From positions 1-42,272 of the IMG/VR virus record IMGVR_UViG_3300014820_000003: a stretch of 42,272 nt of DNA, one strand, 5' to 3'. Positions 678 through 39,854 of the stretch are shown in pieces. The notes under the pieces were generated by a model, which searched no databases, was not told the DNA's origin, and was given only the letters and a program-made list of their open reading frames with translations. The position numbers and the translations under genes were made by a program. How positions within the stretch are numbered: position 1 is the stretch's first letter; each line of letters starts with the position of its first letter. Origin of the DNA: a virus.

Positions 678-1043
678 ATGAAAAAAATCTTTGGGGTATA
701 TGGTACTCTTCGCAGAGGCTATGGAAATAACAGGTGTTTAGGAGATGCTAAGTTCTTAGGAGAATTTAAAACAGAACCAAACTACACCCTCTTTGATGGG
801 GGGTTTCCGGTGTGTGAAAGAGGTGGAAATACCTCTATTCATATAGAACTATTTGAAACAGATAACCCTGAAATAATTTCTGATGTTAACTCATTAGAAG
901 GCTGTACAGGAATAAAAGGCCATCCAGCTAATTGGTATGACGTGGACTATATAAACAGTCCCTACGGAATAGCAACCATATTTGTTATGAACAAAGGAAC
1001 AAGTGGCAGAAACAAAATTTTAGAAACTGGTAAATGGAACTAA
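678..1043 (+). CDS. Gamma-glutamylcyclotransferase-like (AIG2/GGCT) protein
   Basis: The N-terminus carries the hallmark YGTLRRG loop (residues 8-14) after a beta strand. This loop binds the gamma-glutamyl substrate in the AIG2/GGCT fold. Glu57 in IHIELF and Glu74 in SLEG are the visible candidates for the acidic catalytic residue. At 121 residues it matches the small single-domain members. Characterised relatives cyclise the gamma-glutamyl group of amines or peptides to 5-oxoproline, releasing the amine. AIG2-like genes were described with amidoligase/ATP-grasp gene sets in bacteria and phages (Iyer, Aravind and colleagues). The amidoligase cassette starts about 3 kb downstream, so this may be its trimming enzyme; the link is inference. 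Cytoplasmic, as no signal peptide is visible. Confidence 0.85.
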   Translation: MKKIFGVYGTLRRGYGNNRCLGDAKFLGEFKTEPNYTLFDGGFPVCERGGNTSIHIELFETDNPEIISDVNSLEGCTGIKGHPANWYDVDYINSPYGIATIFVMNKGTSGRNKILETGKWN

Positions 1044-3631: not shown

Positions 3632-3994
3632 ATGCCAGAAAATGCCCAAATAACACAAACAGAGTGTTGCGCCTTATTTCAAATAAGCGGAATAAGCAAT
3701 GATTCTACTATTGTAGATATTCAAGAAGCAATTGATGAAGTTAAGGAAGATGAAGATATGCATGGAAGAGCGGTTTTTGTAATAACAATGAAAGAGGAGG
3801 TAGACTTAGTGGCAAAATTAAAAGAATTAGATTTTAAGAAAGTCACCACTTTTTCAAGAAAGTATTGTTATGAGCAAACAGGACTTACAATGTGGCTTAA
3901 AAAATTAGATTACAAAGAAGAATACGATGAGATGATAGAAGAGGAAAGAGAAATGGAGGAAGATTATGAACATTATGAATATGATAACGAATAA
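3632..3994 (+). CDS. Hypothetical protein with acidic C-terminal tail, 120 aa
   Basis: The first 100 residues look like a compact alpha/beta domain: CALFQISGIS, AVFVITMKEE, then LKELDFKKVTTFSRKY and GLTMWLKKL. The closing pattern is reminiscent of the last strands of GNAT-like folds, but no acetyl-CoA motif is visible, so I do not assign a function. The last 25 residues are almost entirely Glu/Asp/Tyr. It lies between the glycosylase homologue (6 bases) and the first amidoligase (14 bases). Confidence 0.6.
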   Translation: MPENAQITQTECCALFQISGISNDSTIVDIQEAIDEVKEDEDMHGRAVFVITMKEEVDLVAKLKELDFKKVTTFSRKYCYEQTGLTMWLKKLDYKEEYDEMIEEEREMEEDYEHYEYDNE

Positions 3995-4008: not shown

Positions 4009-4845
4009 ATGAATAGATTAATTAATAATCCGTTAATAGGAACGGATTTTGAATTGTTTCTTAAACATAAAGAAACTAATGAAATAGTATCTGCTGAGGG
4101 GCTTATACAAGGAACTAAATATGTTCCATTTAACTTCGATAAGTCTAATCAGTATTTTTCTACTTCTCTTGACAATGTTCTTGCAGAGGCAACTATTCCT
4201 CCTGTTAATAACGTTGAAGCGTGGGTAGCTAATATAAAAAAATCAAGGGATTACATAGAATCTATCCTGCCAAATCATTTATGTACAGTGGCAACTCCTG
4301 CTGCAATATTAGATGATAAGTGGCTTGGCACTATCAATGCACAGACTTTTGGGTGTGAACCTGATTATGATGCTTGGTTAAAAGCTCCTAATGAAAGACC
4401 AAAGGCAGATAATCTTAATTTAAGAAGCGCTGGTGCTCATATCCATGTAGGATATGATATGCCATTGAAGGACAATGGAGAAGTTGATATGGCAAGGGTA
4501 ATAACAATTGGAGAATTTATTATAAAAACAATGGATTTATTTGTTGGAATTCCGTCTGTTATTCAGGAACCTGAAAACGATAGAAAGAAACTATACGGAA
4601 AAGCAGGTGCTTTCAGATTTAAAGAGTATGGAGTAGAATATCGCACAGTGAGTAATTATTATTTAGAAAATGAAAAGCTTACTAAGTGGGTATTTGGAGC
4701 CACAATAAAAGCTTTGGATTTTGTTAATGATGAGCGCATGGATGAAATTGAAGCAGTGGCAGAAATTATACAGGAAGCAATAAATAACAATGACAAAGTT
4801 CTTGCAGGCAATTTAATTAATCAATTTAATCTTGAGTTAGTATGA
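4009..4845 (+). CDS. phiEco32-like amidoligase (type 2 COOH-NH2 ligase)
   Basis: The 278-residue protein matches the phage amidoligase family of the glutamine-synthetase/GCS fold. It has GTDFELF near the N-terminus (11-17, metal-binding Glu), RSAGAHIHVGYD (139-150, paired His), and RKKLYGKAGAFRFKEYGVEYRT (192-213, nucleotide- and substrate-binding basic residues) followed by SN. These enzymes are predicted to use ATP to join a carboxylate to an amine, making an amide or gamma-glutamyl-type bond. The family was defined from phage phiEco32-like gene neighbourhoods containing ATP-grasp and glutamine amidotransferase genes, exactly what follows here. The substrate is unknown. Its stop overlaps the next start (ATGA, 4842-4845). 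Confidence 0.88.
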   Translation: MNRLINNPLIGTDFELFLKHKETNEIVSAEGLIQGTKYVPFNFDKSNQYFSTSLDNVLAEATIPPVNNVEAWVANIKKSRDYIESILPNHLCTVATPAAILDDKWLGTINAQTFGCEPDYDAWLKAPNERPKADNLNLRSAGAHIHVGYDMPLKDNGEVDMARVITIGEFIIKTMDLFVGIPSVIQEPENDRKKLYGKAGAFRFKEYGVEYRTVSNYYLENEKLTKWVFGATIKALDFVNDERMDEIEAVAEIIQEAINNNDKVLAGNLINQFNLELV

Positions 4846-5129
4846 ATAATTTACAATTTTTCTTTTTACGTAGGGCTAATCATTTGGAACACACTCGTCT
4901 GATTAGTGGAGAAAACTCTGCTCCTATAGGTAATTTAGGTGATTCCTACACTTACACCTTTGAGGGAATAAAGGATAATAAACCTGATGTAGTTACAATT
5001 TCCTTTTATGGTAGGGGTTTTAATATTGGGGATACAGTAAAATGGTCTTATAATAAGAGATATATTGTTACAAGCAAGAAAAAATTTCACTATAAAAAGG
5101 AAAACTTGAATTTAAAACATAATCTATGA
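4842..5129 (+). CDS. Hypothetical protein, 95 aa
   Basis: A basic 95-residue protein, probably beta-rich (SYTYTFEGI, VVTISFYGRGF, DTVKWSYNKRYIVTS), that could be a small beta-barrel. It has no recognised motif. It is coupled to the amidoligase by an ATGA overlap, so it may be a partner or substrate of the amide-bond cassette, but only the position suggests this. Confidence 0.6.
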   Translation: MNNLQFFFLRRANHLEHTRLISGENSAPIGNLGDSYTYTFEGIKDNKPDVVTISFYGRGFNIGDTVKWSYNKRYIVTSKKKFHYKKENLNLKHNL

Positions 5130-5132
5130 AAT

Positions 5133-5378
5133 ATGGAAAAAATACCCACAGCACAAGAATGGCTTGAAAGTCAACAATGTATAAGAAATGTTGAAGATTT
5201 TTATAATGATGTTCAACCTGTTGATTTAATTGAGTTTGCTCAACTCCATATTAAAGCTGCCTTTAAAGAGATTTATAATAAACACGAATTCTATCATACT
5301 TCAGATCAATGGGGGCATGAACGATACATAGATGAAGATTCTATTCTAAATTCATATCCTTTAACAAATATTAAATAA
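5133..5378 (+). CDS. Hypothetical protein, 81 aa (Bacteroidota-phage type)
   Basis: This short acidic protein begins IPTAQEWLES, a style of N-terminus that I associate with small proteins recurring in Bacteroidota phages. A helix FAQLHIKAAFKEIYN sits in the middle. Function unknown. It is spaced 3 bases after the previous gene and 1 base before the ATP-grasp gene, so it belongs to the amidoligase operon. Confidence 0.6.
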   Translation: MEKIPTAQEWLESQQCIRNVEDFYNDVQPVDLIEFAQLHIKAAFKEIYNKHEFYHTSDQWGHERYIDEDSILNSYPLTNIK

Positions 5379-5379
5379 T

Positions 5380-6192
5380 ATGAGAAAATTAAAGGTGTTT
5401 TCCCGCCATCCATCACACCAAGATTTAAGGGAAGCAGGTTTGTTATTTGAAAAGAGAACACTCATAAGACTTGGCTCAGAAACAATTCCAAGACACAAAT
5501 TTGCTGTAGAAATAAACTCCCCTGAAGTAGCAAAAATATCTGGTAATAAGCTATTAATGAAGCAAAAGTTTACAGAAGCAGGTGTTAAAACGGCGGGATG
5601 GATAAAAGGAAAAGACATTTTGGATGAAGATAATCATCCTATTGATTTTCCTATAATAGCCAAACATATTTATGGAAGCAGAGGTACAGGTAATTATAAA
5701 CTTGGTAGTGAAGAAGAATTAAACAATTGGCTTGATAAACCAAATAGAGATTTATCTAAATTCATATTTGAAGAGTTCTTTAAGAAAGGGCGTGAATATA
5801 GACTTCATGTAACAAAAGATGGATGTTTTTATACTTGCCGAAAACTTCTAAAAAATGATGCAGATCAAAGATGGCACAGACATGCAGATAATTGTGTGTG
5901 GATATTAGAAGACAATCCTAAATTTGATAAACCTGTTAATTGGGAACTAATAGTTACCGATTGTGTTAAGGCATTAGAGGCTATTGGCGCAGATGTTTTA
6001 GCTTTTGATGTAAAGGTACAGCTAAGTAAAAATAAGAGCGGGAAGGTACGTGAAAACCCCGAATGGATAATAATTGAGTCTTGCTCTGCTCCTTCATTTG
6101 GAGATATTACTTTACAGAAGTATATTGAAGAACTTCCTAAAATTTATAAAAACAAAACAAATGAAAACATTAGAAGTCTTAGACAAGTATAA
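5380..6192 (+). CDS. ATP-grasp ligase
   Basis: A 270-residue ATP-grasp enzyme. SGNKLLMKQKFTEAGV (54-69) gives the first nucleotide-contacting lobe (Lys57). FPIIAKHIYGSRGTGNY (90-106) is the glycine-rich grasp loop with Lys95. FIFEEFF and EYRLHV (139-144) follow, then Asp210 and Glu233 in IIIESCSAPSFG as metal ligands. ATP-grasp ligases activate a carboxylate as acyl phosphate and transfer it to an amine. The closest architectures are RimK/glutathione-synthetase-like stand-alone ligases. Its position between two amidoligases and two glutamine amidotransferases supports a role in peptide-type modification; the acceptor is unknown. The GNAT gene starts inside its 3' end (32-base overlap). Confidence 0.85.
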   Translation: MRKLKVFSRHPSHQDLREAGLLFEKRTLIRLGSETIPRHKFAVEINSPEVAKISGNKLLMKQKFTEAGVKTAGWIKGKDILDEDNHPIDFPIIAKHIYGSRGTGNYKLGSEEELNNWLDKPNRDLSKFIFEEFFKKGREYRLHVTKDGCFYTCRKLLKNDADQRWHRHADNCVWILEDNPKFDKPVNWELIVTDCVKALEAIGADVLAFDVKVQLSKNKSGKVRENPEWIIIESCSAPSFGDITLQKYIEELPKIYKNKTNENIRSLRQV

Positions 6193-6646
6193 AAAAATAC
6201 TTTCTCCTATTTTGCAAGTAAATTCAGAAGATATTTCTTTTTGGGTTGATTATATGCTGATAGGCAAAATAACTTATGACAAGAAAAATGATGAGTTTGT
6301 AAAAAATTGGAATTTGGGTACTTATGAAGTAAAAGTTAAAATTAATGATAAATATGTACAAGTGAGTACATTTAAACTTTATCAATTGCCGCATTGTTGT
6401 GCTTTCATGGTTTCATGCAATGCACTTGTTATGCCTGAATTCAGAGGAAAAAGAATAGGCACAATCTTAAATTCTTTAAGGCAAGATATTGGAAGATTAC
6501 TTGGTTATTCTGCTATTCTTTGCACCGATATTGAACAAAATAATAATCAGCGCAAACTCTTAAAAACTAATGGATGGAAAGATATTTATTCTTTAGTTAA
6601 TAAAAGAACTAACAACAGAGTGTATATAAGCGTAATTAACATATAA
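6161..6646 (+). CDS. GNAT-family acetyltransferase-like protein
   Basis: I chose ATG 6161 (MKTLEVLD) over an upstream in-frame ATG at 6074, because the longer version would translate 87 bases of the ATP-grasp gene out of frame. The 161-residue product has the GNAT acetyl-CoA loop in ALVMPEFRGKRIGTIL (88-103, R/Q-x-x-G-x-G/A type: RGKRIG) and a following helix. ILCTDIEQNN with LLKTNGWKDI is the usual C-terminal strand-helix ('N..a..lyek.GF'). It would acylate an amine using an acyl-CoA. GNAT-like peptidyl ligases were part of the amidoligase analysis by Iyer and colleagues, so it could equally be an aminoacyl-transfer enzyme within the cassette. Confidence 0.75.
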   Translation: MKTLEVLDKYKKILSPILQVNSEDISFWVDYMLIGKITYDKKNDEFVKNWNLGTYEVKVKINDKYVQVSTFKLYQLPHCCAFMVSCNALVMPEFRGKRIGTILNSLRQDIGRLLGYSAILCTDIEQNNNQRKLLKTNGWKDIYSLVNKRTNNRVYISVINI

Positions 6647-6656
6647 AAATATATAA

Positions 6657-7292
6657 ATGAACCAAAGAATTTATGTTGTAGGAAATGCATTTGGATATGC
6701 TAATTGGATGGAAGGTAAATTAACTAATGTGCTTGAAGAAGCAGATTTAGTTGTATTTACAGGAGGAGAGGACATCTCTCCTGCCTTGTATGGTGAAAAA
6801 CGTCATCCAACTACAAGTTCTAATATGAAGAGAGATATTCAGGAAATGGATATATATGATAAAGCTATTAAACTTGGAAAACATATTATAGGAATATGTA
6901 GAGGTTCTCAGTTTTTATGTGTAATGAATGGAGGAAAACTGGTTCAACATCAACAAAATACTTTATACATTCATCCTATAACACTTAGAGATGGTAGTGT
7001 AATTAATATTACCTCAACTCATCACCAAGCCGCTTATCCGTTTAACTTACCAAAAGATTATTATGTAGTGTTGGGGTGGGGGAATAATCTGTCATCATTT
7101 CATTATGATGGTGACGGAAAGGAATTAAAAGACACTCCTGACTTTAAGGAGTGTGAAATAGTATACTATCCTCATACTAAGTGTTTAGGGATTCAAGGGC
7201 ATCCTGAGCATGATGATTACAAATATCAAGAGGGAATGTCCTATCTTCAAAGTTTATTAAATGATTTCTTAAACAATAAAATAAAAATATGA
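6657..7292 (+). CDS. Class I glutamine amidotransferase / gamma-glutamyl hydrolase (peptidase C26-like)
   Basis: A stand-alone class I GATase fold of 211 residues. It has TGGEDISPALYG (35-46), nucleophile Cys81 in HIIGICRGSQ (the nucleophile elbow), and His182/Glu184 in GIQGHPEHD. The TGGEDI-P-Y-G motif is typical of the PuuD/gamma-glutamyl-GABA hydrolase branch rather than biosynthetic subunits. It should hydrolyse gamma-glutamyl amides, or release ammonia from glutamine for a partner ligase. In this cassette it can either supply nitrogen or reverse the ligations. It starts 10 bases after the GNAT gene and overlaps the class II GATase by ATGA. Confidence 0.85.
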   Translation: MNQRIYVVGNAFGYANWMEGKLTNVLEEADLVVFTGGEDISPALYGEKRHPTTSSNMKRDIQEMDIYDKAIKLGKHIIGICRGSQFLCVMNGGKLVQHQQNTLYIHPITLRDGSVINITSTHHQAAYPFNLPKDYYVVLGWGNNLSSFHYDGDGKELKDTPDFKECEIVYYPHTKCLGIQGHPEHDDYKYQEGMSYLQSLLNDFLNNKIKI

Positions 7293-9670
7293 TAACATTA
7301 TTTGTAAGTCTTTATCTCTTTTCATATATATTACGAATAGTTCGTGGTGCTAAAATAAACACATTGTCGTGCGGACTATTTGGTTATTGCGGAAGCGAGC
7401 CTCCTGATATGAGTAAGATTAAAATATTAGGAATTTTAAATGAGGCAAGGGGTACACATTCCTGTGGAGTGTTTTATAATAATAAAATACTAAAGGGAGT
7501 TGATAAAGAAGCAATATTTACTAATTTTTTAGCTAACAATACAATCAATGCTGTAGAAGGAGCAAATATCTTTATAGGACATACCCGTTGGGCTACTCAT
7601 GGAGAGCACTCTGCTGAAAATGCTCATCCGTTTTCAGTAAATAATGAGTTAGTATTAGCTCATAATGGAACGCTTTCTAACTCTTGGACATTGTGTAATA
7701 CCTATAAAATAAAGCACGATAATATCAGAGTGGATAGTTTGGCACTTGCTTGTTTATTACACCAAGAAGGTGAGAAGGTCTTATCTGAATACAAAGGAGC
7801 TGCTGCCCTACTTTATTATAAAGTAGATAGTCCAGACAGCTTATTTGTATATCATGGAGCATCTAAGAAAAAACCTGACGGAGAGGAAGAAGAGGAAAGA
7901 CCATTATACTATATGAAAACCAAAACAGGTTTCTATTTCTCCAGTTTATCTTATGCTTTGGAAGCTATAAAAGAAAATAGTAAAGAAATTCCCACGCTTG
8001 TTCCTTATAATAGAGTATTAAAATTTACTAAAGATAAGCAGGAAAGAAAATTTTTTAAAGTAGATAGAGGAGATTGTAATGTAGAGTATCCGAGGCAAGT
8101 CAATAATAATTCAGATATTAGACAATTTATTGGCTACCCTAAAGCCTCTGATTATGCTGGTAAAGGAACTGTTGCTTTTAATTCCTCAATCAAAAAAGGA
8201 GAAGAAAAAGTAGAATCGGAAATTTGGAAAGAAAGCTTACCTAACAAGTCTTATGATAACACTAACAATTTTATTTATTTTCATAAAGGGAGATATTGGA
8301 AAATAGAGAATAGCGAACAAGCTCAGGTAACTACTCTTGCTGACGGTTGTTTAAACTTATCCAAAAAAAGTGGTTTTATATGTGACAATGGAGTACACTT
8401 TTATTTCTATAAAGGGGTGTTGTTAACAGGATACACTGCTTTTAACACTGTTAAATCTTCTGAGGTTCAGGAGAAGTTAAAAAATCTAAACTTTGCTTCT
8501 GTAATAAGTAAGTATTCAAAATACCCTGTTACAAATCTTGAAGATGAAAGTGAATATGTTCCTGTAGCAGCAGTAAGATTTTGCTGGTATAGAAACGGCA
8601 GACCAGAAAGATCTGGTTTTACTCCCCTGTTCTCCAACAGAACTTATGTTTTTAAAGAAGGACAATTGATAAAAATATCATGCTCTGATAAAGCAGAAGA
8701 ACCTTTATTTAAAAAAGATTATTCTAAATTGTTAAAAGAACTGATAGAAGCAGATAAAAGATTCTCTGAAAATGAAGAAGACTTGGCTAAGCAAGTTAAA
8801 ATCAATTTTCCTACAGAAAAAGAAAAAGCAGAACATCTTCATAAGTTTGAAAAAGAATTAAAATTCTTTAACAAAAAAGGATGGGCAAAAGATACAGATA
8901 TTCATGCTGAACTTACTAATGTAGGACAAAATGCTTTAGATGCTTATATAAGAGATGCATCTTGGGCACAATCAGAAGTAACTATTCTTACAAAGGAAGT
9001 TAATGAAAGAATGGAGGTAATTTTTTCAGATGCTGTATTAAACAGTACATCAATCCTTCAAGAACTTCCGAATATTGGAAATTTTAGTGACTATTTAGAA
9101 GACGCAATAGAAGACCAAAGAGCTTTAAGTTCTGCTATAAAAGGAGTTGTAAGAAATGGGACTGATTCTTCAAGACATTCTGCTTCTTCTGAGTATGAGA
9201 TAAGTGATTCTGGACTTTGGGTTCTTAAGAGTGACCTTACTACTAATGTTGAGAACTTTGCAGAAAAATCTTGTAAAGAGTGTGGAGGAATTGGTTTAGA
9301 CTTAGAAAAAGAAGAAAAAATAAAATGTCCTAACTGTGGAGGAACGGGAATAGAACCAACAAATAAATTATTTTCTGACCCCGAATTAAATGAAAATAAA
9401 GAAGCATTGCTTACTGATTTGGAAGAAGCTAAAATTTTAGAGGATAGTTGTGCTACTGAAATTTTATCAGATTTTGTAGATACTATAAGAAGTTTAGATT
9501 CCACAATAGATTCTCTATCAGAATTAGATAATTCTGAATTAGCAGCAGATTCCTGTCAGATATTAGTTGAACAAGTATCAATTATTAAAAGAAGTCTTAC
9601 AGAAGTAGGAAGTAGGTTTGGATTAGATAAATTCATAACACAAATAAATAAAAAATCATTACTATGTTAA
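7289..9670 (+). CDS. Class II glutamine amidotransferase fused to a long C-terminal region with a DnaJ-like zinc motif
   Basis: A 793-residue protein. Residues about 28-235 are an Ntn-type glutamine amidotransferase: CGLFGYCG with candidate nucleophile Cys28, RGTHSCG, IGHTRWATHG and LAHNGTLSN, closest in pattern to the GlmS/PurF glutaminase domain. Cys28 is not next to the initiator Met; a hydrophobic leader (residues 2-19) precedes it. The ATG at 7289 is supported by the ATGA overlap, so the leader must be a propeptide that is removed, as in PurF or GltB. The rest (about 240-793) is not recognised, apart from two CxxCxGxG-type units, CKECGGIG and CPNCGGTG (about 661-687), that resemble the DnaJ zinc finger. 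It probably delivers ammonia to the amidoligase encoded next door (7-base overlap). Confidence 0.82.
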   Translation: MITLFVSLYLFSYILRIVRGAKINTLSCGLFGYCGSEPPDMSKIKILGILNEARGTHSCGVFYNNKILKGVDKEAIFTNFLANNTINAVEGANIFIGHTRWATHGEHSAENAHPFSVNNELVLAHNGTLSNSWTLCNTYKIKHDNIRVDSLALACLLHQEGEKVLSEYKGAAALLYYKVDSPDSLFVYHGASKKKPDGEEEEERPLYYMKTKTGFYFSSLSYALEAIKENSKEIPTLVPYNRVLKFTKDKQERKFFKVDRGDCNVEYPRQVNNNSDIRQFIGYPKASDYAGKGTVAFNSSIKKGEEKVESEIWKESLPNKSYDNTNNFIYFHKGRYWKIENSEQAQVTTLADGCLNLSKKSGFICDNGVHFYFYKGVLLTGYTAFNTVKSSEVQEKLKNLNFASVISKYSKYPVTNLEDESEYVPVAAVRFCWYRNGRPERSGFTPLFSNRTYVFKEGQLIKISCSDKAEEPLFKKDYSKLLKELIEADKRFSENEEDLAKQVKINFPTEKEKAEHLHKFEKELKFFNKKGWAKDTDIHAELTNVGQNALDAYIRDASWAQSEVTILTKEVNERMEVIFSDAVLNSTSILQELPNIGNFSDYLEDAIEDQRALSSAIKGVVRNGTDSSRHSASSEYEISDSGLWVLKSDLTTNVENFAEKSCKECGGIGLDLEKEEKIKCPNCGGTGIEPTNKLFSDPELNENKEALLTDLEEAKILEDSCATEILSDFVDTIRSLDSTIDSLSELDNSELAADSCQILVEQVSIIKRSLTEVGSRFGLDKFITQINKKSLLC

Positions 9671-11229
9671 GTCACTCAGAAGATTCTACTTTACCAAATA
9701 AAGTAGTTACCCTTTTCAATGGCTCATTAGAATATAGAGCAAATTGTAAAAAGATTAAAAACAATTTTTATGTTATAAATAAACATTGTTTTGAAGTAGA
9801 TGGTAAATGGTATAGAGAAGAATCAGGATTAGTAAGTAAAGATTATGAAACAGAAAAATGGTTTTTAAATGATTCTCCTCATAGAAGAATAAAAGCTTTA
9901 GTAGATTTTAAAGATGGAGAGCCTGTAATTGGGTGGATTACGGAGAATCCATACAATAATGTATTAGCAAAAACCAAACCTTCATCATTTGATAGAGTTC
10001 CTTTATTATATGCTCTAAATTCAGATATTTTATCTGAAAATGGATATATTGAAGATATTTCTTCTGGAGTATGGTCGTCTAAAAAAGATTTATCGTTAGA
10101 CTCAATAAGAAAACATAACATTATTACTAATTCAGTTAATTACACTGAGAAAGGATATAACATAGAGGATAATTACAATGAAGCTGCATTAAAAAAGAAA
10201 TATTATGATGAGTATGATTTGCCTCTTACTAAAGATGTAAGAAGGTATTCTAAATTTTTAAATGATGTTACTTTCGGATTAGAGTTAGAATGTTCTCATG
10301 GTTTTATTCCTGACAATTTACAAAACAGAATGAACTTAGTAGTTTGTAGAGATGGTAGTTTAAACGATGAGAGAGGAAGACCTGGGCCGGAATTTGTTAC
10401 AAACCCATTGAGAGGCGCTAAAGGTTTACAAAACATTGTCAATATATCTAATGAGTTAAAAAAGAGAACTTTAATAAGTACTAAATGCTCATTACATATT
10501 CATTTAGGTAATCTCCCTACTTCAAGATTATTTTTAATAAGCTTATATGTACTTTCTTATAAAATTCAGGACGAGGTATACAAAATGTTTCCCTATTATA
10601 AAACAGATTACAATGCTGCAAATAAAGAAAAGGATTATTGTCAGAAACTGAAGAAAATGAATATGGGTAAACTGTCTCCTTCTGCTGATAAGGAAGAGTA
10701 TGAAAAATATATAAATGATAATTATACTAAATTATTTTATTGGTTATCTCAAAATCATAATGGTAGTGGGTATAACCCAGGCCAAGACTGTAATAGAAAA
10801 CAACATTGCCACCCAGTTGCTCAAAAATGGCAAAGAAAGAACAGATACTATTGGGTTAATTTAATGAACACTCTTTTCTCAACAAGAAACACTGTGGAAT
10901 TTAGATTGCATACACCTACTGTTAACAGTCAAAAAATTATAAATTGGTTATTTATAGTTAATGCAATAGCAAGATATGCTGTACTTAATAGCAGAGAGAT
11001 CTTAACCTCATCTAAAAAGATAACACTAAGTTCTGTTTTAAACTATTATAAAGATACATTCAGAATACCACAAGCGGAATTTTTAAGCGAGTATCTTAAA
11101 GCTTACGTAGATGAAAGAACAGAAGCTTTCCAAAAAGACTACATAAAAGGAGATTATCTATCTTCATGGGAATTAGAAGGAGATAAAACTTATGAATTTA
11201 AGCACAAAAATATTTCACATTTATTTTAA
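9664..11229 (+). CDS. Amidoligase_2-family enzyme (second amidoligase)
   Basis: A 521-residue protein. The C-terminal two-thirds matches the putative amidoligase family: FGLELECSHGF (metal-binding Glu pair), RDGSLN with GPEFVTNPLRG, SLHIHLGN (paired His), RYYWVNLMNTLF and NTVEFRLHTPTVN, all in the expected order for the glutamine-synthetase/GCS-like fold. The first about 190 residues are an extra region, with IKNNFYVINKHCFEVDGKWY resembling short stretches of the preceding GATase gene. The enzyme should form amides with ATP. It overlaps the class II GATase by 7 bases, which suggests that the two act together, the GATase feeding ammonia or presenting glutamine. It is the last gene of the cassette; substrate unknown. 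Confidence 0.85.
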   Translation: MLSHSEDSTLPNKVVTLFNGSLEYRANCKKIKNNFYVINKHCFEVDGKWYREESGLVSKDYETEKWFLNDSPHRRIKALVDFKDGEPVIGWITENPYNNVLAKTKPSSFDRVPLLYALNSDILSENGYIEDISSGVWSSKKDLSLDSIRKHNIITNSVNYTEKGYNIEDNYNEAALKKKYYDEYDLPLTKDVRRYSKFLNDVTFGLELECSHGFIPDNLQNRMNLVVCRDGSLNDERGRPGPEFVTNPLRGAKGLQNIVNISNELKKRTLISTKCSLHIHLGNLPTSRLFLISLYVLSYKIQDEVYKMFPYYKTDYNAANKEKDYCQKLKKMNMGKLSPSADKEEYEKYINDNYTKLFYWLSQNHNGSGYNPGQDCNRKQHCHPVAQKWQRKNRYYWVNLMNTLFSTRNTVEFRLHTPTVNSQKIINWLFIVNAIARYAVLNSREILTSSKKITLSSVLNYYKDTFRIPQAEFLSEYLKAYVDERTEAFQKDYIKGDYLSSWELEGDKTYEFKHKNISHLF

Positions 11230-11238: not shown

Positions 11239-11892
11239 ATGAAGACTTATTATAATTTTATTCCTTATGATGAGGTTGTTTCATTAAAGAGTTTTATATG
11301 TATTTATGGAACATATGATAATTATAGAAAAAGAAAAAAACCTAATTTCTTTACCTTTAATCATGAAGATTTATGTATTACAGGTGAAGAATTTATAAAA
11401 TTCTGTAAGATATTAAATTTATGGGGATTTTCTAACACAGTGGAGATTGTAAAAGAAGGATTTATCTGTGTCTTCCCAAATAAAGATTACGACACAGATA
11501 AACAATTCTTAACTGCTGTAACAATTATAAGATATGCAGTAAAAACATCTTATCTTGGAATAAATTATGGAACAGATAAAGTTATTCATACTATGTTTGA
11601 ATACAAAAAGAAACATCCACGTTTAGATTATTTTATCTGCTTTCAAATTGCTTGTTATTTAACAATGGAAGGTAAAAATTGCCCTGGACATTCTTGTTTC
11701 CTTTCAGTTTCTAAATTAGTATCCTTTAAAGAATTAAAGGAAAAGAAATTTCCAGTCGATTCTGTTAATTCCTTATTTTTTAAGGAACTGATTCCTGAGT
11801 TTAGCTCTGATTATCCAGATTCTTGGATGTTTAAAAAAATGCACGACTTAATAAACAAAGATGAAGAAGCAGCATTAAAACTTTTGTTATGA
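11239..11892 (+). CDS. Hypothetical protein, 217 aa (paralogue of the gene at 13150)
   Basis: No known family. The protein contains KFCKILNLWGF near residue 60, an FLTAVTIIRYAV helix and a CPGHSCFLS segment. The same pattern, with matching spacing, occurs in the protein encoded at 13150-13938 (RFMNYCGF, IFAALTAMRYIY, DTGHSFSG). They look like diverged copies of one gene. The conserved GHS with nearby Cys could be a metal or active site, but that is a guess. The end overlaps the next gene by ATGA. Confidence 0.65.
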   Translation: MKTYYNFIPYDEVVSLKSFICIYGTYDNYRKRKKPNFFTFNHEDLCITGEEFIKFCKILNLWGFSNTVEIVKEGFICVFPNKDYDTDKQFLTAVTIIRYAVKTSYLGINYGTDKVIHTMFEYKKKHPRLDYFICFQIACYLTMEGKNCPGHSCFLSVSKLVSFKELKEKKFPVDSVNSLFFKELIPEFSSDYPDSWMFKKMHDLINKDEEAALKLLL

Positions 11893-13149: not shown

Positions 13150-13938
13150 ATGAATAATTTATATGACAAACCACTAAAACTTATACATAATGGTGGAAGA
13201 TATGAGCATAGTTGTATTTATAAAATGGATAACCCCGATAAGTTTTATCAAAAAATTGGAGCTTGTCACTCAGGAGTAAAAGATTATCTTCAGTTTAATC
13301 CAAAAAGTAAGAATGAATTTTTTCTCTATATTAGAAAAGACCTGTTAGTATATTCTTTAGATGATTTAAAGAGGTGGTTGAGGTTTATGAACTACTGTGG
13401 GTTTAAATTTCATTTCCTAAAAGAAGAGAAAATTTCTTTGGGTAAAGAGCCAGGCAATCCATATTCATATAGTTTTTCAGGAGATGTTTACACACTAAAA
13501 TTAAAATGTGTAGAATATATAAATAATATGCATATATTTGCAGCCCTTACAGCTATGAGATATATCTATTATAATTTTGGTTTTGGGTATATTAAAATTC
13601 CAGAGGCAGTTTTTACTTTAAAAAAAGAATTTAAAGGAAAGATTGATGGAATACAAGCATTATTATTAGCCTATCATTGCATTGGAGTAGATGATACAGG
13701 ACATAGTTTTTCAGGATTAGAACCTAATCATAGAGATAAGGGAATAACTATTTCTAAAAAATCTTTTTATAAAGGAATAAAAGCTGTGGTGAAAGAAAAA
13801 GTTACTACTCTAAATTCTTTACTTTATGAGCCTTCTACTAAAAGTAGTAGAAAGATAAGATCATTATATGAGGAAGGTAATTTTAAAGCATTGGGAGAAT
13901 ATATTTTTAATAAAAAAGAGAAAAAAAATATAATTTAA
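13150..13938 (+). CDS. Hypothetical protein, 262 aa (paralogue of the gene at 11239)
   Basis: No known family. It shares with the product of 11239-11892 the ordered blocks LRFMNYCGF / CKILNLWGF, IFAALTAMRYIY / FLTAVTIIRYAV and DTGHSFSG / CPGHSCFL, and the overall alpha/beta rhythm. This copy has a longer N-terminus and a basic C-terminus (KKEKKN). The next gene begins directly after the stop codon. Confidence 0.65.
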   Translation: MNNLYDKPLKLIHNGGRYEHSCIYKMDNPDKFYQKIGACHSGVKDYLQFNPKSKNEFFLYIRKDLLVYSLDDLKRWLRFMNYCGFKFHFLKEEKISLGKEPGNPYSYSFSGDVYTLKLKCVEYINNMHIFAALTAMRYIYYNFGFGYIKIPEAVFTLKKEFKGKIDGIQALLLAYHCIGVDDTGHSFSGLEPNHRDKGITISKKSFYKGIKAVVKEKVTTLNSLLYEPSTKSSRKIRSLYEEGNFKALGEYIFNKKEKKNII

Positions 13939-16636: not shown

Positions 16637-17236
16637 ATGAATAAAGAAATAGAATTAATAATAAGGCAACCATATAAAGTAAAAGAACAGATATTAGATG
16701 GTAAATATACAAAAACTACCCACTTTCTTTTGCCAGGACTGCATATTTCTAACTCTTTAGACTTATTTACTAAATATTTTGTTAACGCTTTTATAGAAGA
16801 TGGTGGTATTACTCATATTATTAAAAATCCACTATTTATATTATGCAGAACTAAAATATTTGATGAAGAGTGGAAAAAATTTGAAGACTCATTAAAGGCT
16901 TCTCCAAGATGTGTTTATGAGTATGATGTTGGAAAGTATGAAGATGACTATCTTGTAATGTTTTTATTTGAGTTTCCTGCTGCATATAGAGCAGACTACT
17001 TTAGATTTTTAGAAAGTGAATATTCTAAATTTTCTGATCATTACAAGAAATTATTTAAAGAAATAATGCTAAATGAAAGAGGAGAATCAGTAGAAAACTC
17101 TTTATATGGAATTATATATAAAACTCCTTCATTTAAAAGGACTATGGAAAAAGTAATAGATGCTCCATTAGATTCTACAAAAGAATATTGGGAAAAATGG
17201 AACCCTGAACGTGAAATATTTAGAAAACAAATTTGA
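16637..17236 (+). CDS. Hypothetical protein, 199 aa
   Basis: An alpha/beta-looking protein with no recognised motif. Its segments include HFLLPGLHIS, LFTKYFVNAFIEDGG, DYLVMFLFEFPAAYRADYF and a charged C-terminus. The composition is typical of soluble phage proteins. It starts 2 bases after the DUF551 stop, and its TGA overlaps the start of a 45-residue gene (TGATG). Confidence 0.6.
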   Translation: MNKEIELIIRQPYKVKEQILDGKYTKTTHFLLPGLHISNSLDLFTKYFVNAFIEDGGITHIIKNPLFILCRTKIFDEEWKKFEDSLKASPRCVYEYDVGKYEDDYLVMFLFEFPAAYRADYFRFLESEYSKFSDHYKKLFKEIMLNERGESVENSLYGIIYKTPSFKRTMEKVIDAPLDSTKEYWEKWNPEREIFRKQI

Positions 17237-18093: not shown

Positions 18094-18893
18094 GCAAAGA
18101 TTTAGGGCTTAGATATAATGAAGGTAAAAACAGGATGGATTTACTTGAACCATATGCTATAGAGCAATTAGCTAAAGTATTTACTATTGGAGCTAATAAG
18201 TATGAGCCTGGAAACTGGTTAAAAGGAATGAAGTGGTCTAAGGTAGTAGCTTCTCTTAAAAGACATCTAAACTCTTTTGAGCAAGGAGTTGATTATGATG
18301 ATGAAACTCATCTTTTACATGCTGCCCATATTGCGTGGAACGCAATGGCATTAGTAAGTTATTATAAGCATTACCCACAGGGAGATGATAGAAGACATAA
18401 TTATCTGCATACTAAAAAGATAGGTTTAGATATTGACGGGGTTTTGGCTGATTTTACAGGACATTTACTTACTAAATTAGGGTATCCCGAACATATTCCT
18501 TTACATTGGAATGATCCTATAATAAGAAATGGATTTGAGTTGCATAAACATGACAAACAATTTTGGTTAGATATTCCACCTTTAGTAACAAGAGAAGATA
18601 TTAATTTTGAGCCTCATGCATATATAACTGCACGAAGTATAGATGAAGAAGTAACTAAAGCATGGCTTGATAAGTATAATTTTCCTACAGCCAAGATATA
18701 TTCTATAGGAATAGGAGAATCTAAAGTGGAAGTAGCAAAGAAGTCGGGGGTGGAAATTTTTGTAGACGATAATTTTGATAACTTTATTCAGCTTACAAAT
18801 GCAGGAATTTTTACTTATTTATATAATGCACCATACAATGAAAAATATTCTGTTGGTTTTAGAAGGATTCATAACTTAAATGAAATAGTATAA
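18090..18893 (+). CDS. dATP/dGTP diphosphohydrolase-like domain fused to a HAD 5'-nucleotidase
   Basis: Residues 1-110 match the phage dATP/dGTP diphosphohydrolase N-terminal domain (formerly DUF5664): LRYNEGKNRMDLLEP, YEPGNWLKG, LKRHLNSF and THLLHAAHIAWNAMAL, with the expected metal-binding His/Asp/Glu. Residues about 110-267 are a HAD phosphatase of the 5'(3')-deoxyribonucleotidase type: KIGLDIDGVLADF (Asp114, Asp116), AYITARS (motif II Thr) and EIFVDDNFDNF (acidic motif). The first domain would convert a purine dNTP to dNMP and diphosphate, the second dNMP to nucleoside. The fusion therefore suggests one polypeptide that strips a purine deoxynucleotide from the pool. No PurZ-like gene is present in this window. 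It is followed by a MazG-like gene (1-base overlap). Confidence 0.8.
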   Translation: MSKDLGLRYNEGKNRMDLLEPYAIEQLAKVFTIGANKYEPGNWLKGMKWSKVVASLKRHLNSFEQGVDYDDETHLLHAAHIAWNAMALVSYYKHYPQGDDRRHNYLHTKKIGLDIDGVLADFTGHLLTKLGYPEHIPLHWNDPIIRNGFELHKHDKQFWLDIPPLVTREDINFEPHAYITARSIDEEVTKAWLDKYNFPTAKIYSIGIGESKVEVAKKSGVEIFVDDNFDNFIQLTNAGIFTYLYNAPYNEKYSVGFRRIHNLNEIV

Positions 18894-19186
18894 TGGAAGA
18901 TTCAATACAAACAATACTTAATTACAACATTCCTGAGTTTAATTATATTAAACTTGCAGAAGAATTAGCAGAATTAAGTGAAGTGGTTCTTAAAATGTAT
19001 CTAAAAAAAGCAGAACACAAGCCTCCTAAGGAGAGATTAGTAGAAGAGATTGGTGATGTAATTCTAAGGCTTAAAATTTTAAGTAAAATGGAAAACATTA
19101 GTTTTGATGTTAATGCAAGAGTGCAAAAGAAAACATTTCAAATTTTACAATGGATTGATGAAGGTAAATATAAAGGAGGAGCATAA
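18893..19186 (+). CDS. MazG-like nucleotide pyrophosphohydrolase
   Basis: A 97-residue all-alpha protein with KLAEELAELSEVVLK (Glu23/24/27) and RLVEEIGDVILRLKIL (Glu51/52, Asp55), the ExxE...ExxD metal-binding pattern of MazG/dUTPase-like pyrophosphatases. It would hydrolyse an NTP or dNTP to the monophosphate. It is wedged between the diphosphohydrolase-nucleotidase fusion and a small gene with one-base overlaps at both ends (TAATG), so it belongs to a nucleotide-pool unit. Confidence 0.75.
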   Translation: MEDSIQTILNYNIPEFNYIKLAEELAELSEVVLKMYLKKAEHKPPKERLVEEIGDVILRLKILSKMENISFDVNARVQKKTFQILQWIDEGKYKGGA

Positions 19187-19386
19187 TGACAGATAAAGAA
19201 AAAATAAATATCCTAAGCAGTTTTTTAATAAGATTACACACAGCACGTTGGACAGGAAATACTAAGATGTTTGCAGAACTTATGGAACGTATAGCTGCAT
19301 ATAGTTATGCAAGAACTAATTCAAATGGATTTGAGGATGAGGAAGAATTAAACAGAGAAAGAACTCTCTTAAATTTAGATAAATGA
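19186..19386 (+). CDS. Hypothetical protein, 66 aa
   Basis: A short helical protein (LSSFLIRLHTARWTGNTKMF, ELMERIAAYSYAR) with an acidic C-terminus. No recognised family. The tight TAATG and ATGA overlaps with its neighbours support expression. Confidence 0.6.
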   Translation: MTDKEKINILSSFLIRLHTARWTGNTKMFAELMERIAAYSYARTNSNGFEDEEELNRERTLLNLDK

Positions 19387-20117
19387 AAATTATAGCACTT
19401 GGAGATACACATGGTAGAAATGTGTGGAAAGAAATAGTTTTAAAAGAAGAACCTTTTGATAAAATAGTGTTTATAGGAGACTATTGGGATAGCTTTGATA
19501 TTCCATATGAAGAGCAAGCTAAAAATTTTCTTGATATTTGTGAATATAAAAAAGATAATATTAATAAAGTAGTGTTGCTTATTGGAAATCATGACTTCCA
19601 TTATTTAGATTGTATAAGAGATACAGGAGAAAGTTATTCAGGATTTCAAGGAAACGTATCTTCTCATATAGGATTTCTATTAGAAGAAAATAAGAAATTA
19701 TTTCAAGCAGCTTATGAATATAAAAATTTTTTATTTACTCATGCAGGAGTTACTCAAACATGGCTTGAGTGTAATAACTTTAATGTAAAAGAGTTAACTA
19801 TTGCAGATGCAATAAATGAGATATTTAACTATCGTCCTGAAGCTTTTAGATTTGAGGGATATAATCCTTATGGAGATGACATTACTCAAAGTCCTATATG
19901 GGTAAGACCTAAAAGCTTAATGGAAGATGCTAAGAAATTTAAAAAACAAATTATACAAATTGTAGGACACACAGGACAAAATTGTATAGATGAAAAAGGA
20001 AAATCAACGGGGGGAAGATACTATTTTATAGATACTCTTGGTAGTTCTAAAGAGTATTTGATCATAGAGAATGATTTAATCATAGTAGGAAAAATAAGTA
20101 ATAACTCGGTGGGATAA
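19383..20117 (+). CDS. PPP-type metallophosphoesterase
   Basis: All calcineurin-like motifs are present: ALGDTHGR (Asp8, His10), FIGDYWDS (Asp33), LIGNHDFHY (Asn69, His70, Asp71), FTHAG (His120) and VGHTG near residue 200. The GDYWDS...GNHD pattern is that of the PPP/ApaH/PrpE group, which dephosphorylates proteins or splits Ap4A. Length 244 is normal for the family. It sits just upstream of the RNA ligase/kinase pair, so a role in RNA end healing (removing a 2' or 3' phosphate) is possible, as is signalling. The final codons form part of the 5' arm of a folded RNA at 20102-20182. Confidence 0.85.
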   Translation: MKIIALGDTHGRNVWKEIVLKEEPFDKIVFIGDYWDSFDIPYEEQAKNFLDICEYKKDNINKVVLLIGNHDFHYLDCIRDTGESYSGFQGNVSSHIGFLLEENKKLFQAAYEYKNFLFTHAGVTQTWLECNNFNVKELTIADAINEIFNYRPEAFRFEGYNPYGDDITQSPIWVRPKSLMEDAKKFKKQIIQIVGHTGQNCIDEKGKSTGGRYYFIDTLGSSKEYLIIENDLIIVGKISNNSVG

Positions 20118-20209: not shown

Positions 20210-21337
20210 ATGGAAAATTTGTCCAGTGTTTGTTTTGTAGGAAAAATAGAACAAATTAATTCTATAGAAGGTGCAGATAAAATAGTACAAGCTGTTATTA
20301 GTGGGTGGGAATGTGTAATAGGGAAAGACCAGCATAAAGTTGGAGATCTTGTAGTCATAGCTACAACAGATGCTGTTATACCTTTTGAACTTGCGGAAAA
20401 TTTGGGAGTAACCTCCTATCTAAAAAATAGAAAAAAGACAGGACAATTAACTGTTAAGACTACTAAGTTGCGTGGAGTGTACAGCACTGCACTTATTATA
20501 AACGATAATATTATGCAATATAGACATTCTGAAGGAGAAGACTGCATGAGTAATTATAATATAGAAAAATACGAAGAACCTGCTGAAATTATACAAACTA
20601 TTTCTGGAAGAAAATTTCGTTATCATAAGAATCCAAATTTTCATGTATATTACAAATTTCCTAATTCCAAGAATGCTCCTGACATGTTCACTGAGGAAGA
20701 TGAAGTAATAATAACACGCAAATTACATGGAAGTAATGGACGTTGGGGAATAGTAAAAAAACCTAAATTATCTTTATTAGATAAAATTAAAAAACTTCTT
20801 GGAAATAAATCTATAGAATATTCTTATTGCTATGGTTCTCATGAAGTAGAAAAAGGTAGTGATTCACAAGGATTTTATTCAACTGATATATGGAGAGAAG
20901 TAGCAGATAAATTTTATATAAAAGAAAAGCTCTGGCAAATAGTGAAAAATTTAGATAGGCAAACAATTGGAAAAGGTATTATTATTTATGGGGAAGTAAT
21001 AGGAAATGGGGTACAGAAATATTATGATTATGGTTATAAAGAACGCAGAGTAAGATTTTTTGATATAAAACTTAACGATAGTTATGTAAATAATGAAATA
21101 TTTGAACAAATCTGCTCCTCTTTTTCATTAGAGAAAGTACCTGTTCTCTATAGAGGCAACTGGACTAAGGAAGGAGAGAACAAATTTCTTTTTGATAAAA
21201 TTAAGGACTCTAAAATATATCACGAAGGAATAGTAGTAAAACATATATCAGGGGATAGAAATAAAATATACAAGGTAATATCTCCTGCATACCTGGAATT
21301 TCAATCAAAAAAGGAGGATAGTACAGACTTTCATTAA
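20210..21337 (+). CDS. RNA ligase with N-terminal OB-like domain (Deinococcus Rnl-like)
   Basis: A 375-residue nucleotidyltransferase-type ligase. Motif I is ITRKLHGSNGRWG with the AMP-accepting Lys171. IIIYGEVIGNGVQKYYDYG is motif III and its surroundings, HEGIVVKHI motif IV, and KIYKVIS motif V. The first about 115 residues form a separate domain (SSVCFVGKIEQINSIEGADK, DLVVIATTDAVIP) as in the Deinococcus radiodurans Rnl group, which seals 5'-phosphate/3'-OH ends. Such ligases repair nicked or cleaved RNA, including tRNAs broken by host anticodon nucleases. A polynucleotide kinase gene, interrupted by a stop, and a metallophosphoesterase lie directly downstream, a common end-healing/sealing set. 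Confidence 0.85.
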   Translation: MENLSSVCFVGKIEQINSIEGADKIVQAVISGWECVIGKDQHKVGDLVVIATTDAVIPFELAENLGVTSYLKNRKKTGQLTVKTTKLRGVYSTALIINDNIMQYRHSEGEDCMSNYNIEKYEEPAEIIQTISGRKFRYHKNPNFHVYYKFPNSKNAPDMFTEEDEVIITRKLHGSNGRWGIVKKPKLSLLDKIKKLLGNKSIEYSYCYGSHEVEKGSDSQGFYSTDIWREVADKFYIKEKLWQIVKNLDRQTIGKGIIIYGEVIGNGVQKYYDYGYKERRVRFFDIKLNDSYVNNEIFEQICSSFSLEKVPVLYRGNWTKEGENKFLFDKIKDSKIYHEGIVVKHISGDRNKIYKVISPAYLEFQSKKEDSTDFH

Positions 21338-38099: not shown

Positions 38100-38103
38100 T
38101 TTA
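38092..38103. other. 12-bp perfect palindrome at the convergent stops
   Basis: TAAATTAATTTA contains the TAA of the GroES-like gene (38097-38099) and, on the other strand, the TAA of the protease gene (38103-38101). It is too AT-rich and short to be a convincing terminator, and there is no other signal between the converging units. Confidence 0.4.
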
Positions 38104-38865
38104 TTTTAAATTATTCAAATCAGTCTGTAATAACTCCAAATTAATATTATTTGGAGCTAAATTATTATTAAGCCAGTCCATGCTAAAAGCAGCATGCACC
38201 TCATCACCATAATCAAGAAACCATCCCCACTCAACTTTTAGTATAGTGCCCCAGCTAATAACATATACATAAGTTTCGTCATAAGCACAACCTAAAAAGG
38301 AGTGACCGCCCCAACTTCCAGGAGCGTTCCCTCCTTGTAAATTTCCTTTAGGATCTGTCCATATTGATTGGTATTGAACAGAAATTGGCATTTGAGCACA
38401 AAGTCTAACACACCCAAAAATACTTATAGCTGCTTTAATTAAATCAACTCTATTTTGTTGTATTTGTGTATAGGCTAAAATTTTATGTCCATCAATACCT
38501 GTATTTCTCAGATATGAAAGTACATCAAGTTCTATTGCCCCATTATCGTTAAGTCCATTTATGGTGTTATATCCACTTACGTCTGAATACCCTTTTATAA
38601 TAGCCTTATCATCAATGATGATCTGATTACCATTATTAGCACTCCATAGCTGTACCGCATGACCTGCTGTTGCAAAAGTACAGTCACCTATAAGATCATT
38701 ACCCATCATACCTAAATTGGTAATTTTATCACTCCAACTTTGTGCTGCTGGGTATGTAGGAGCTGTGTAATATTTTTCAAAAAGGAATACCTTATTATCA
38801 CGCTTTGCAGGTAATTTACCTAAGCATGGTAATATGTATACTCCTAATTCTTCAAGTAACTGCAT
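38101..38865 (-). CDS. Papain-like cysteine peptidase
   Basis: A 254-residue protein. NDLIGDCTFATAGHAVQLW gives the nucleophile Cys62 with the preceding small residues. GSWGGHSFLGCAYDETYVYV gives His188. VISWGTI shows the papain SWG motif where the Asn stands in NSWG. Order and spacing are those of the papain (C1) fold. Phage members are thought to cut peptidoglycan stem peptides or virion or host proteins. It ends the minus-strand operon that carries a holin-like protein and a lipoprotein, so an endolysin or tail-associated role is likely. No signal peptide is visible. Confidence 0.7.
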   Translation of the reverse strand: MQLLEELGVYILPCLGKLPAKRDNKVFLFEKYYTAPTYPAAQSWSDKITNLGMMGNDLIGDCTFATAGHAVQLWSANNGNQIIIDDKAIIKGYSDVSGYNTINGLNDNGAIELDVLSYLRNTGIDGHKILAYTQIQQNRVDLIKAAISIFGCVRLCAQMPISVQYQSIWTDPKGNLQGGNAPGSWGGHSFLGCAYDETYVYVISWGTILKVEWGWFLDYGDEVHAAFSMDWLNNNLAPNNINLELLQTDLNNLK

Positions 38866-38869
38866 ATTA

Positions 38870-39388
38870 TTAATTTATAGGCAAATGACCAACAATTACT
38901 AAATCTGATTGGCCAGAAGTTCCTGCAATAAATGGAGCCTTCCAACAATATCCTATTAGAATGATATTATTAAATAAACCTACTGCTGGGCCGACCCCTA
39001 CAATATTTTTATTACTTGGATTTAAAGAAGGTATTCCTAACTGAGCTGCTCCCCAAAGCATAGCATTAATAGAAAACTTGGAATGGTAAATAGAAATACT
39101 ATCTACATAATGTAATCTGTTATATCCATAACCTACTCCGCCAATAAGATTATTATTAAAAACTCCATATCCTACAACTGGCCCAATAATTCTAAATGTT
39201 GCTATATCTGGGTAGGTAGTTGTAACTACATTTTTGGATAGTGATAATTTTGGATGTATCTTCCCTTCATACATTAGTTGTATTGGAGATTTTACTTTAT
39301 GTAAAATATTTGTTTTTACATATTTAACTTGTGCCTGTGTTGTTGCTGTTATTATAATAAATAGCAAAATTAATTTTAGACGTTTCAT
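38870..39388 (-). CDS. Secreted protein, possible outer-membrane/beta-rich, 172 aa
   Basis: The N-terminus is a clear Sec signal peptide (KRLKLILLFIIITATTQAQ, cleavage after AQA-Q or nearby). The mature part is Gly- and beta-rich (IIGPVVGYGVFNNNLIGGVG, AVGLFNNIILIGYCW), as in small outer-membrane-associated proteins of Bacteroidota. No family recognised. It may modify the host surface or act in lysis. It sits four bases before the protease gene. Confidence 0.65.
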   Translation of the reverse strand: MKRLKLILLFIIITATTQAQVKYVKTNILHKVKSPIQLMYEGKIHPKLSLSKNVVTTTYPDIATFRIIGPVVGYGVFNNNLIGGVGYGYNRLHYVDSISIYHSKFSINAMLWGAAQLGIPSLNPSNKNIVGVGPAVGLFNNIILIGYCWKAPFIAGTSGQSDLVIVGHLPIN

Positions 39389-39416
39389 TTTTTATTTTTA
39401 ATTATTATTTACAAAA

Positions 39417-39839
39417 TTATTTAGGCATATTCCCGCCAACTGGTAATTTACTATTATCTATAATGTTTTCAACAGGTGGTACTTCTTTTGCTTTCACAAT
39501 TTCAGCACTTTTCTCATAGCTCAAAGGCTTAGGTGGTGGTGCAACAGAAGATAAGATTGCTGCAACTCCAAACATTATAAATTGTTGCCATGAAAAAGTG
39601 CCAGTTTGATTCATAGTTACGAATACTCCTGAAAGTGTTCCTACAATTCCAAAAATTGTGATACCTTGTCCTCTCCATTGTGTTGAGATAAAAGATAAAG
39701 CTGCCATCAAAGTAGCAAAAAGATAAACCTTCAGATCTTGAGAATGTCCAGTGGTTGAAAGTAATTGATTTAAAGAGACTGCTACAGCAGCAGCAAGTCC
39801 AGATAAAAATACTTTGTATTTGTTTAAAAATGTTCGCAT
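39417..39839 (-). CDS. Holin-like multi-pass membrane protein, 140 aa
   Basis: It has a short basic N-terminus (RTFLNKYKVF), then three or four hydrophobic segments within residues 11-95 (VFLSGLAAAVAVSL, KVYLFATLMAALSFIST, GITIFGIVGTLSGVFVT, FIMFGVAAILSSVA), then a charged, Pro-rich C-terminus. Size, topology and position between a secreted protein and a small lipoprotein fit a holin. No signature sequence proves it, so another phage membrane protein is possible. Confidence 0.6.
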   Translation of the reverse strand: MRTFLNKYKVFLSGLAAAVAVSLNQLLSTTGHSQDLKVYLFATLMAALSFISTQWRGQGITIFGIVGTLSGVFVTMNQTGTFSWQQFIMFGVAAILSSVAPPPKPLSYEKSAEIVKAKEVPPVENIIDNSKLPVGGNMPK

Positions 39840-39854
39840 ATTTATTTATTTTTT

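Follow-up and report, generated by a model that had tools for sequence, protein, structure and literature searches.

The viral record IMGVR_UViG_3300014820_000003, 42,272 bp long and analysed here over its full length (the window), carries on its plus strand a block of open reading frames (ORFs; 4009-11229) which, judged from sequence, almost certainly belongs to a conserved cassette for amide-bond and γ-glutamyl chemistry. A preliminary description had singled out this block. Its named genes were all confirmed in place, tightly packed on one strand with overlaps of 4-32 bp or short gaps. The view taken there, i.e., a functionally linked amide-bond cassette of the type outlined by Iyer and Aravind, holds: the core enzymes are apparently catalytically intact and relatives keep the genes together. 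The full unit is wider than the block and extends from the γ-glutamyl cyclotransferase gene GGCT (678) through to 13938. Two features were absent from the earlier account, a transmembrane leader on the class II glutamine amidotransferase GAT2 and a protein family, termed ORPH, encoded at 11239 and 13150. As far as the literature searched shows, the membrane-leader form of GAT2 is new, and so is the recognition of ORPH as a cassette component.

Cassette enzymes and their co-occurrence

Six families apparently possess intact active sites, as far as can be read from the sequences:

678..1043, plus strand: GGCT/AIG2 γ-glutamyl cyclotransferase; PF06094 1.3e-9, PHROG 2520 9.2e-14; conserved Glu74 kept
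4009..4845, plus strand: COOH-NH2 ligase type 2 (phiEco32-like amidoligase); PF14395 2.9e-9, PHROG 3815 1.2e-63
5380..6192, plus strand: ATP-grasp peptide ligase (PHROG S6 glutaminyl transferase family); PHROG 2599 4.6e-19
6657..7292, plus strand: C26 protein (PuuD/Lin1909-like γ-glutamyl hydrolase); PF07722 1.8e-18; Cys81/His182/Glu184 kept
7289..9670, plus strand: class II (Ntn) glutamine amidotransferase GAT2, 793 aa; PF13522 2.1e-14
9664..11229, plus strand: Amidoligase_2 (AMD2; GCS/GS-like) with an N-terminal extension of ~200 residues; PF12224 6.3e-10, PHROG 2443 6.9e-26

When a column is called conserved if its residue is present in at least 85% of the family, the window proteins keep 25/25 columns in C26, 42/43 in GAT2, 29/32 in the COOH-NH2 ligase, 6/7 in GGCT, 15/16 in ATP-grasp and 29/31 in AMD2, where the two misses look like misalignment. 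The catalytic triad Cys-His-Glu of C26 is in place (C81, H182, E184), and the Ntn catalytic residues of GAT2 (C28, R100, N126-G127, D149) are invariant. The COOH-NH2 ligase shares 53% identity with its homologue in Leptolyngbya phage Lbo-JY46. Profile searches of the PDB with both amidoligases gave no credible match.

The family names proposed earlier fared unevenly in the profile searches. PF14395, PF07722 (C26), PF13522, PF12224 and, for GGCT, PF06094 were recovered above cut-off; the ATP-grasp protein remained below its Pfam cut-off (16 vs 27 bits) and was recovered through PHROG 2599 instead, and a proposed GNAT acetyltransferase fell below as well. The ATP-grasp family profile matches PurK/PurT-type and D-Ala-D-Ala ligase structures. 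Its metal-binding motif Asp...Glu-x-Asn is incomplete in the window: D210 and E233 are kept and Asn235 is replaced by Cys, a change also present in 6/161 relatives.

The statement that both glutamine amidotransferase classes are represented is correct at the level of families, yet the function implied for C26 is doubtful. Because its nearest PDB structures are Lin1909 (1.2e-6), PuuD (8.9e-5) and a Pseudomonas probable amidotransferase, C26 is more likely a γ-glutamyl hydrolase than an ammonia donor. Some loci harbor two or three C26 paralogues (L002, L068, L112, L114), one of them near the canonical γ-glutamyl hydrolases and one specialised beside the COOH-NH2 ligase.

For the comparative analysis 232 sequences were collected (the window, annotated phage regions and viral contigs), and profiles of each family were searched against all ORFs. 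A single-sequence search with Amidoligase_2 had retrieved nothing; profile queries succeeded. The loci were gathered via cassette genes, so every rate is conditional on the presence of one member, and related viruses do not count as independent observations. In 42 viral loci of at least 19 kb seeded by ATP-grasp alone, AMD2 and GAT2 were each present in 42/42, the COOH-NH2 ligase in 39/42, and C26 and GGCT in 34/42 each. This co-occurrence is far above chance. GGCT, formerly mentioned as a gene lying apart, is a core cassette member.

The order of the genes discloses distinct pairs. AMD2 lies directly 3' of GAT2 in 74/78 crAss-type loci. C26 never occurs without the COOH-NH2 ligase (105/105, counted over 118 distinct loci). 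Thus GAT2 is paired with AMD2, C26 with the COOH-NH2 ligase and, as detailed below, ORPH with C26. Among 84,980 genomes of bacteria and archaea, scanned by means of short conserved patterns only, a single cassette was found, on a 9-kb contig of a metagenome-assembled genome that is possibly viral, together with one weak partial match. This suggests a virus-borne system; a bacterial chromosomal origin was rejected on the same scan.

The GAT2 leader and the ORPH family

In the window GAT2 begins with 27 residues, MITLFVSLYLFSYILRIVRGAKINTLS, ahead of the catalytic Cys28:

7289..7369, plus strand: hydrophobic leader of 27 residues, predicted to form a membrane helix; the next codon (7370-7372) is that of the catalytic Cys

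Such a leader is present in 37/130 distinct GAT2 proteins, window included (~28%); most others begin with Met-Cys-Gly. A hydrophobicity threshold was passed by 85% of the leaders and by 0.9% of 2542 control ORFs. The leaders carry a net positive charge C-terminal to the hydrophobic stretch, which by the positive-inside rule predicts an N-out/C-in orientation, and often close with a motif like KPKxNTLx immediately ahead of the Cys. In codon comparisons of close pairs both synonymous and replacement changes were seen, as in a coding stretch. An alternative start at a TTG two codons before Cys28 was rejected because the Leu at position -2 is encoded by many codons in homologues, mostly TTA. A lipoprotein signal was rejected as well, because position -1 is frequently occupied by Asn, Tyr or Phe.

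The AF2 model of GAT2 displays a helix at residues 2-19 and an Ntn domain at 28-257, both with high pLDDT; with an overall pTM of only 0.44, the relative placement of the domains is unreliable. Cys28 aligns with residue 1 of the GlmS, PurF and GltS structures, and superposition on E. coli GlmS yields a VIA Z of 24.8 (rmsd 2.5, 214 residues). The nucleophile of an Ntn glutaminase requires a free amino group, and PurF- and GltS-type enzymes remove their leader by processing. Therefore the GAT2 leader would have to be removed, and we infer that GAT2 is made as a membrane-born proenzyme from which the leader would be cleaved.

GAT2 has no recognisable SIS, PRTase or synthetase domain. Since it has a glutaminase domain but no recognised synthetase domain, and an ATP-dependent amidoligase is consistently encoded beside it, the most economical reading of the sequences is that GAT2 and AMD2 may constitute a two-protein, glutamine-dependent amide synthetase. 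The unassigned C-terminal region of GAT2 was compared with ORPH, with the Amidoligase_2 extension and with a podoviral 190-aa protein; a relationship was rejected as no signal was obtained. Residues 660-690 form a zinc-ribbon-like stretch (CxxC...CxxC) with weak DnaJ/anti-TRAP matches, which is not seen in three aligned relatives.

Clustering of the non-core ORFs exposed further proteins of unknown function near the cassette. Comparison of profiles places two window proteins together with orphan families of the cr108_1 (crAss-like) and CVT22-type (podoviral) cassettes:

11239..11892, plus strand: ORPH copy 1, directly 3' of AMD2; hhalign 84% to the cr108_1 orphan family
13150..13938, plus strand: ORPH copy 2; hhalign 91% and 88% to two independent orphan families

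When 89 ORFs were run as a control, scores were obtained for the four ORPH proteins alone (84-99.9%), and the best of the rest reached 7%. Among 69 distinct ORPH copies the next cassette gene, mostly within 150 bp, is C26 in 52 and the COOH-NH2 ligase in 9, a count favored by the fact that membership was partly iterated inside cassette neighbourhoods. A profile search over all ORFs gave few further matches outside such neighbourhoods. Extra copies several kb off the core are found at L038:684-1334, L040:6368-7018, L048:869-1450 and L126:2464-3051 and 18837-19505.

ORPH has no match in Pfam and none with a named function in PHROG. A crAss-type member was modelled with good scores (pLDDT 85.9, pTM 0.88); against the PDB this model has no match (best Foldseek E 0.07), and the best VIA candidates, a tandem KH protein (Z 4.8) and McsB/arginine kinase (3.9), do not identify it. 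Among predicted viral structures it retrieved cr108_1, another crAss-like virus and, more weakly, Cronobacter phage GAP52 and Aeromonas phage 4_4572. Both of the latter phages carry the cassette; judged by length, the match is the gene two upstream of the COOH-NH2 ligase in GAP52 and lies ~3.5 kb upstream of it in 4_4572. By these comparisons ORPH recurs as a part of the cassette in both crAss-like and podoviral lineages.

Genomic setting, proposed mechanism and proposed target

The cassette shares its strand in the window with an early/replication gene set: DnaB-like helicase, UDG, PolA, primase and RNR. The helicase and UDG genes separate GGCT from the remaining cassette. PolA has its best matches in cr108_1, cr111 and crAss001 (28-31% identity), and the cassette is nearest to those of Lbo-JY46, crAssphage cr108_1 and Cellulophaga phage phi14:2. 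None of the ORFs of the 42-kb fragment was recognised as a Crassvirales capsid, portal or terminase gene; hence the label crAss-like is based on replication and cassette genes.

Within the block lie three ORFs of a different standing:

4842..5129, plus strand: small ORF, passenger; no homologue among 232 loci
5133..5378, plus strand: small ORF, passenger; seven matches in five loci, away from the cassette core
6161..6646, plus strand: putative GNAT, sporadic accessory; PF00583 E 0.02, under cut-off

The two small ORFs had been envisaged as carriers or substrates. This idea fails because they are not conserved across the 232 loci. Likewise, GNAT does not qualify as a cassette part. The name itself is weak since the score of 15.6 bits is below the Pfam gathering cut-off of 20.7; homologues exist in four other loci only, and just 1/42 ATP-grasp-seeded loci has one.

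Several neighbours are recorded here. Directly 5' of the COOH-NH2 ligase lies a 120-aa protein (3632-3994) with relatives in nine loci; in L040 and L048 these directly adjoin an ORPH copy. A 199-aa protein without assigned function (16637-17236) has profile matches in 75 loci and is apparently widespread in these phages. An RNA ligase gene is located at 20210-21337 (PHROG 968, 4.6e-51), and RNA ligase 2 genes are annotated close to the cassette in GAP52 and Aeromonas 4_4572 as well. At 38101-42272 the GC skew reverses and the genes move to the minus strand; of the ORFs tested there, one matches PHROG 19005 (unknown function) and the rest match no PHROG. In Lbo-JY46, GAP52 and Aeromonas 4_4572 NAD-salvage/PRPP-synthetase genes (PncB, PrsA, nicotinamide phosphoribosyltransferase) lie a few kb from the cassette (L002:4470-8679; L259:1-1280; L260:15006-15809), with homologues in several other cassette loci.

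The replication setting, together with a UDG gene that adjoins the cassette in roughly half the loci seeded by ATP-grasp, could be taken to indicate hypermodification of the phage genome with amide-linked groups. We consider this extremely improbable: the cassette contains no conserved base-modifying enzyme, many cassette loci yielded no UDG, and the GAT2 leader indicates a membrane.

We favor, tentatively and at somewhat less than an even chance for the account as a whole, a reaction at the membrane that draws on glutamine and modifies a host peptide; the likeliest such peptide is the peptidoglycan precursor in the cytoplasm. The cassette would be expressed alongside the replication genes of a crAss-like phage. 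By means of the leader GAT2 would reach the inner membrane on its cytoplasmic side; removal of the leader, probably autoproteolytic like that of PurF-type propeptides, would then free Cys28. GAT2 would pass ammonia to Amidoligase_2, which would amidate a carboxyl group; ATP-grasp and the COOH-NH2 ligase could attach amino-acyl or γ-glutamyl groups, and C26 and GGCT could trim or recycle the latter. ORPH may be a structural or acceptor-recognition partner. The acceptor would most likely be the stem peptide of a cytoplasmic or lipid-linked peptidoglycan precursor; this is the weakest step. The altered wall of the infected cell might serve superinfection exclusion or prepare lysis, as earlier authors proposed.

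An inner-membrane-associated acceptor is favored because of the membrane leader, the diderm hosts and the early-gene location. With respect to hosts, an evenly spread 60 of 316 phages carrying the COOH-NH2 ligase infect diderms wherever a host is named, which is what an envelope target would predict.

A number of points weigh against this account. Known domains that bind peptidoglycan or are specific to lipid II are absent from all cassette proteins. Both the acceptor and the autoproteolysis of the GAT2 leader are what we infer. The restriction to diderm hosts could be an effect of phage lineage and not of the target. Membrane attachment is not essential, because the leader occurs in the minority of GAT2 proteins given above and was repeatedly gained or lost (at least 11 changes); cultured podoviruses have GAT2s without it. 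Finally, the window ATP-grasp sequence has a Cys where a metal-binding Asn is usual.

The same enzymes could instead tag proteins, i.e., add glutamyl or amino-acyl groups in a RimK-like manner to host proteins (ribosome, RNA polymerase) or to the virion, with ORPH as substrate or adaptor. The ATP-grasp protein belongs to a PHROG named S6 glutaminyl transferase, the cassette is located among early genes, and the fast-evolving, sometimes paired ORPH copies could be substrates. Yet two GCS/GS-like ligases, GGCT and C26 indicate γ-glutamyl chemistry on small molecules or peptides, a membrane leader is unexpected for a ribosomal or capsid target, and no conserved small carrier was found. Protein tagging is possible but unlikely.

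Ligation followed by γ-glutamyl removal through C26 and GGCT also recalls, from general knowledge of these families, the logic of butirosin and γ-glutamyl-putrescine pathways. The product might thus be a small effector or protective metabolite for counter-defence, such as a γ-glutamyl conjugate or an amidated nucleotide, with γ-glutamylation as a temporary protecting group; NAD-salvage-type genes close to the cassette in several relatives fit such a product. These genes are, however, near a minority of loci only and none was found in the window, nor is there a conserved transporter or carrier protein. We view an effector of this kind as quite unlikely.

To return to the peptidoglycan precursor as target, a more specific version is doubtful but deserves mention: a membrane-assembled, glutamine-dependent complex of ligases in which the transmembrane proenzyme GAT2 and Amidoligase_2 would operate together with a C26/COOH-NH2-ligase/ORPH module to remodel lipid-linked peptidoglycan precursors. 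There the Cys would be freed at the inner membrane and ORPH would act as the acceptor-recognition subunit. Phage amidoligase cassettes have been predicted since 2009 to remodel the host wall. A membrane-tethered proenzyme and ORPH provide handles, i.e., a reaction site, protein pairs and purification targets, by which the wall hypothesis becomes testable. If it is true, several unrelated phage lineages on diderm hosts share a means of rewriting peptidoglycan during infection.

Comparison with known phage cassettes

A seven-gene "peptidoglycan modification cassette" has been described in RIO-1-like podoviruses, and phiEco32, 7-11, PA11, tf, LUZ24, PaP3 and CW02 are named as carriers (PMC5498523). 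Superinfection exclusion or wall weakening was proposed as its role (PMC11945000; PMC10580990). In the literature searched, as far as it was available, no direct experimental test of the cassette enzymes or of peptidoglycan modification was found. For the Planctomycetes phage ZRK32 with amidoligase, GATase and GGCT a role in nitrogen metabolism was suggested (PMC10945688), which for the cassette at large would mean auxiliary nitrogen or glutamine metabolism raising the amino-acid supply of host or phage. The published link is correlative, the families form no known nitrogen-assimilation route, and strict multi-enzyme conservation and the membrane leader are left unexplained; accordingly, this is highly improbable.

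The gene set as such, which the preliminary description considered possibly undescribed, is already known from other phages: PA11, CVT22, cr108_1 and Lbo-JY46 carry it, and phi14:2 has all but C26. In PA11 and CVT22 (Zobellviridae) both GATase classes, both amidoligases and ATP-grasp are already annotated, in PA11 within gp1-gp8 (C26, GATase II, COOH-NH2 ligase, amidoligase, ATP-grasp). In contrast to the window, their GAT2 lacks the leader and their Amidoligase_2 is short. CVT22 has an orphan protein upstream of C26.

Closer relatives are the Crassvirales Steigviridae phages phi14:2 and cr108_1 and phage Lbo-JY46. They share the six families of the window, with C26 missing in phi14:2 and GGCT unannotated in cr108_1, and as in the window the cassette is close to replication genes. 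The GAT2 of phi14:2 possesses a leader like that of the window. Gene order and small accessory ORFs differ; the two orphan proteins precede C26 in cr108_1 but follow Amidoligase_2 in the window.

The podovirus cassette (phiRIO-1, phiEco32, Salmonella 7-11, PA11, LUZ24, PaP3, CW02; Iyer 2009, Hardies 2013, Duhaime 2017) has in common with the window two amidoligases, ATP-grasp, class II GATase, GGCT and the position in an early/replication region. In PaP3 and phiEco32 the COOH-NH2 ligase, Amidoligase_2, class II GATase, ATP-grasp and GGCT are annotated and C26 is absent from the annotation. The podoviruses keep a gene for a ~190-aa protein (PHROG 4877/11055) between the two amidoligases which the window does not have; that it corresponds to the N-terminal extension of the long Amidoligase_2 was rejected (hhalign probability 0.2%). 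Conversely, the window has the long Amidoligase_2, the GAT2 membrane leader and the C26 protein.

With PurF, GltS and GlmS the window GAT2 shares the Ntn fold and the Cys1/Arg/Asn-Gly/Asp residues, and in some of those enzymes the N-terminal Cys is exposed by processing. What sets GAT2 apart is that its predicted propeptide is a membrane helix.

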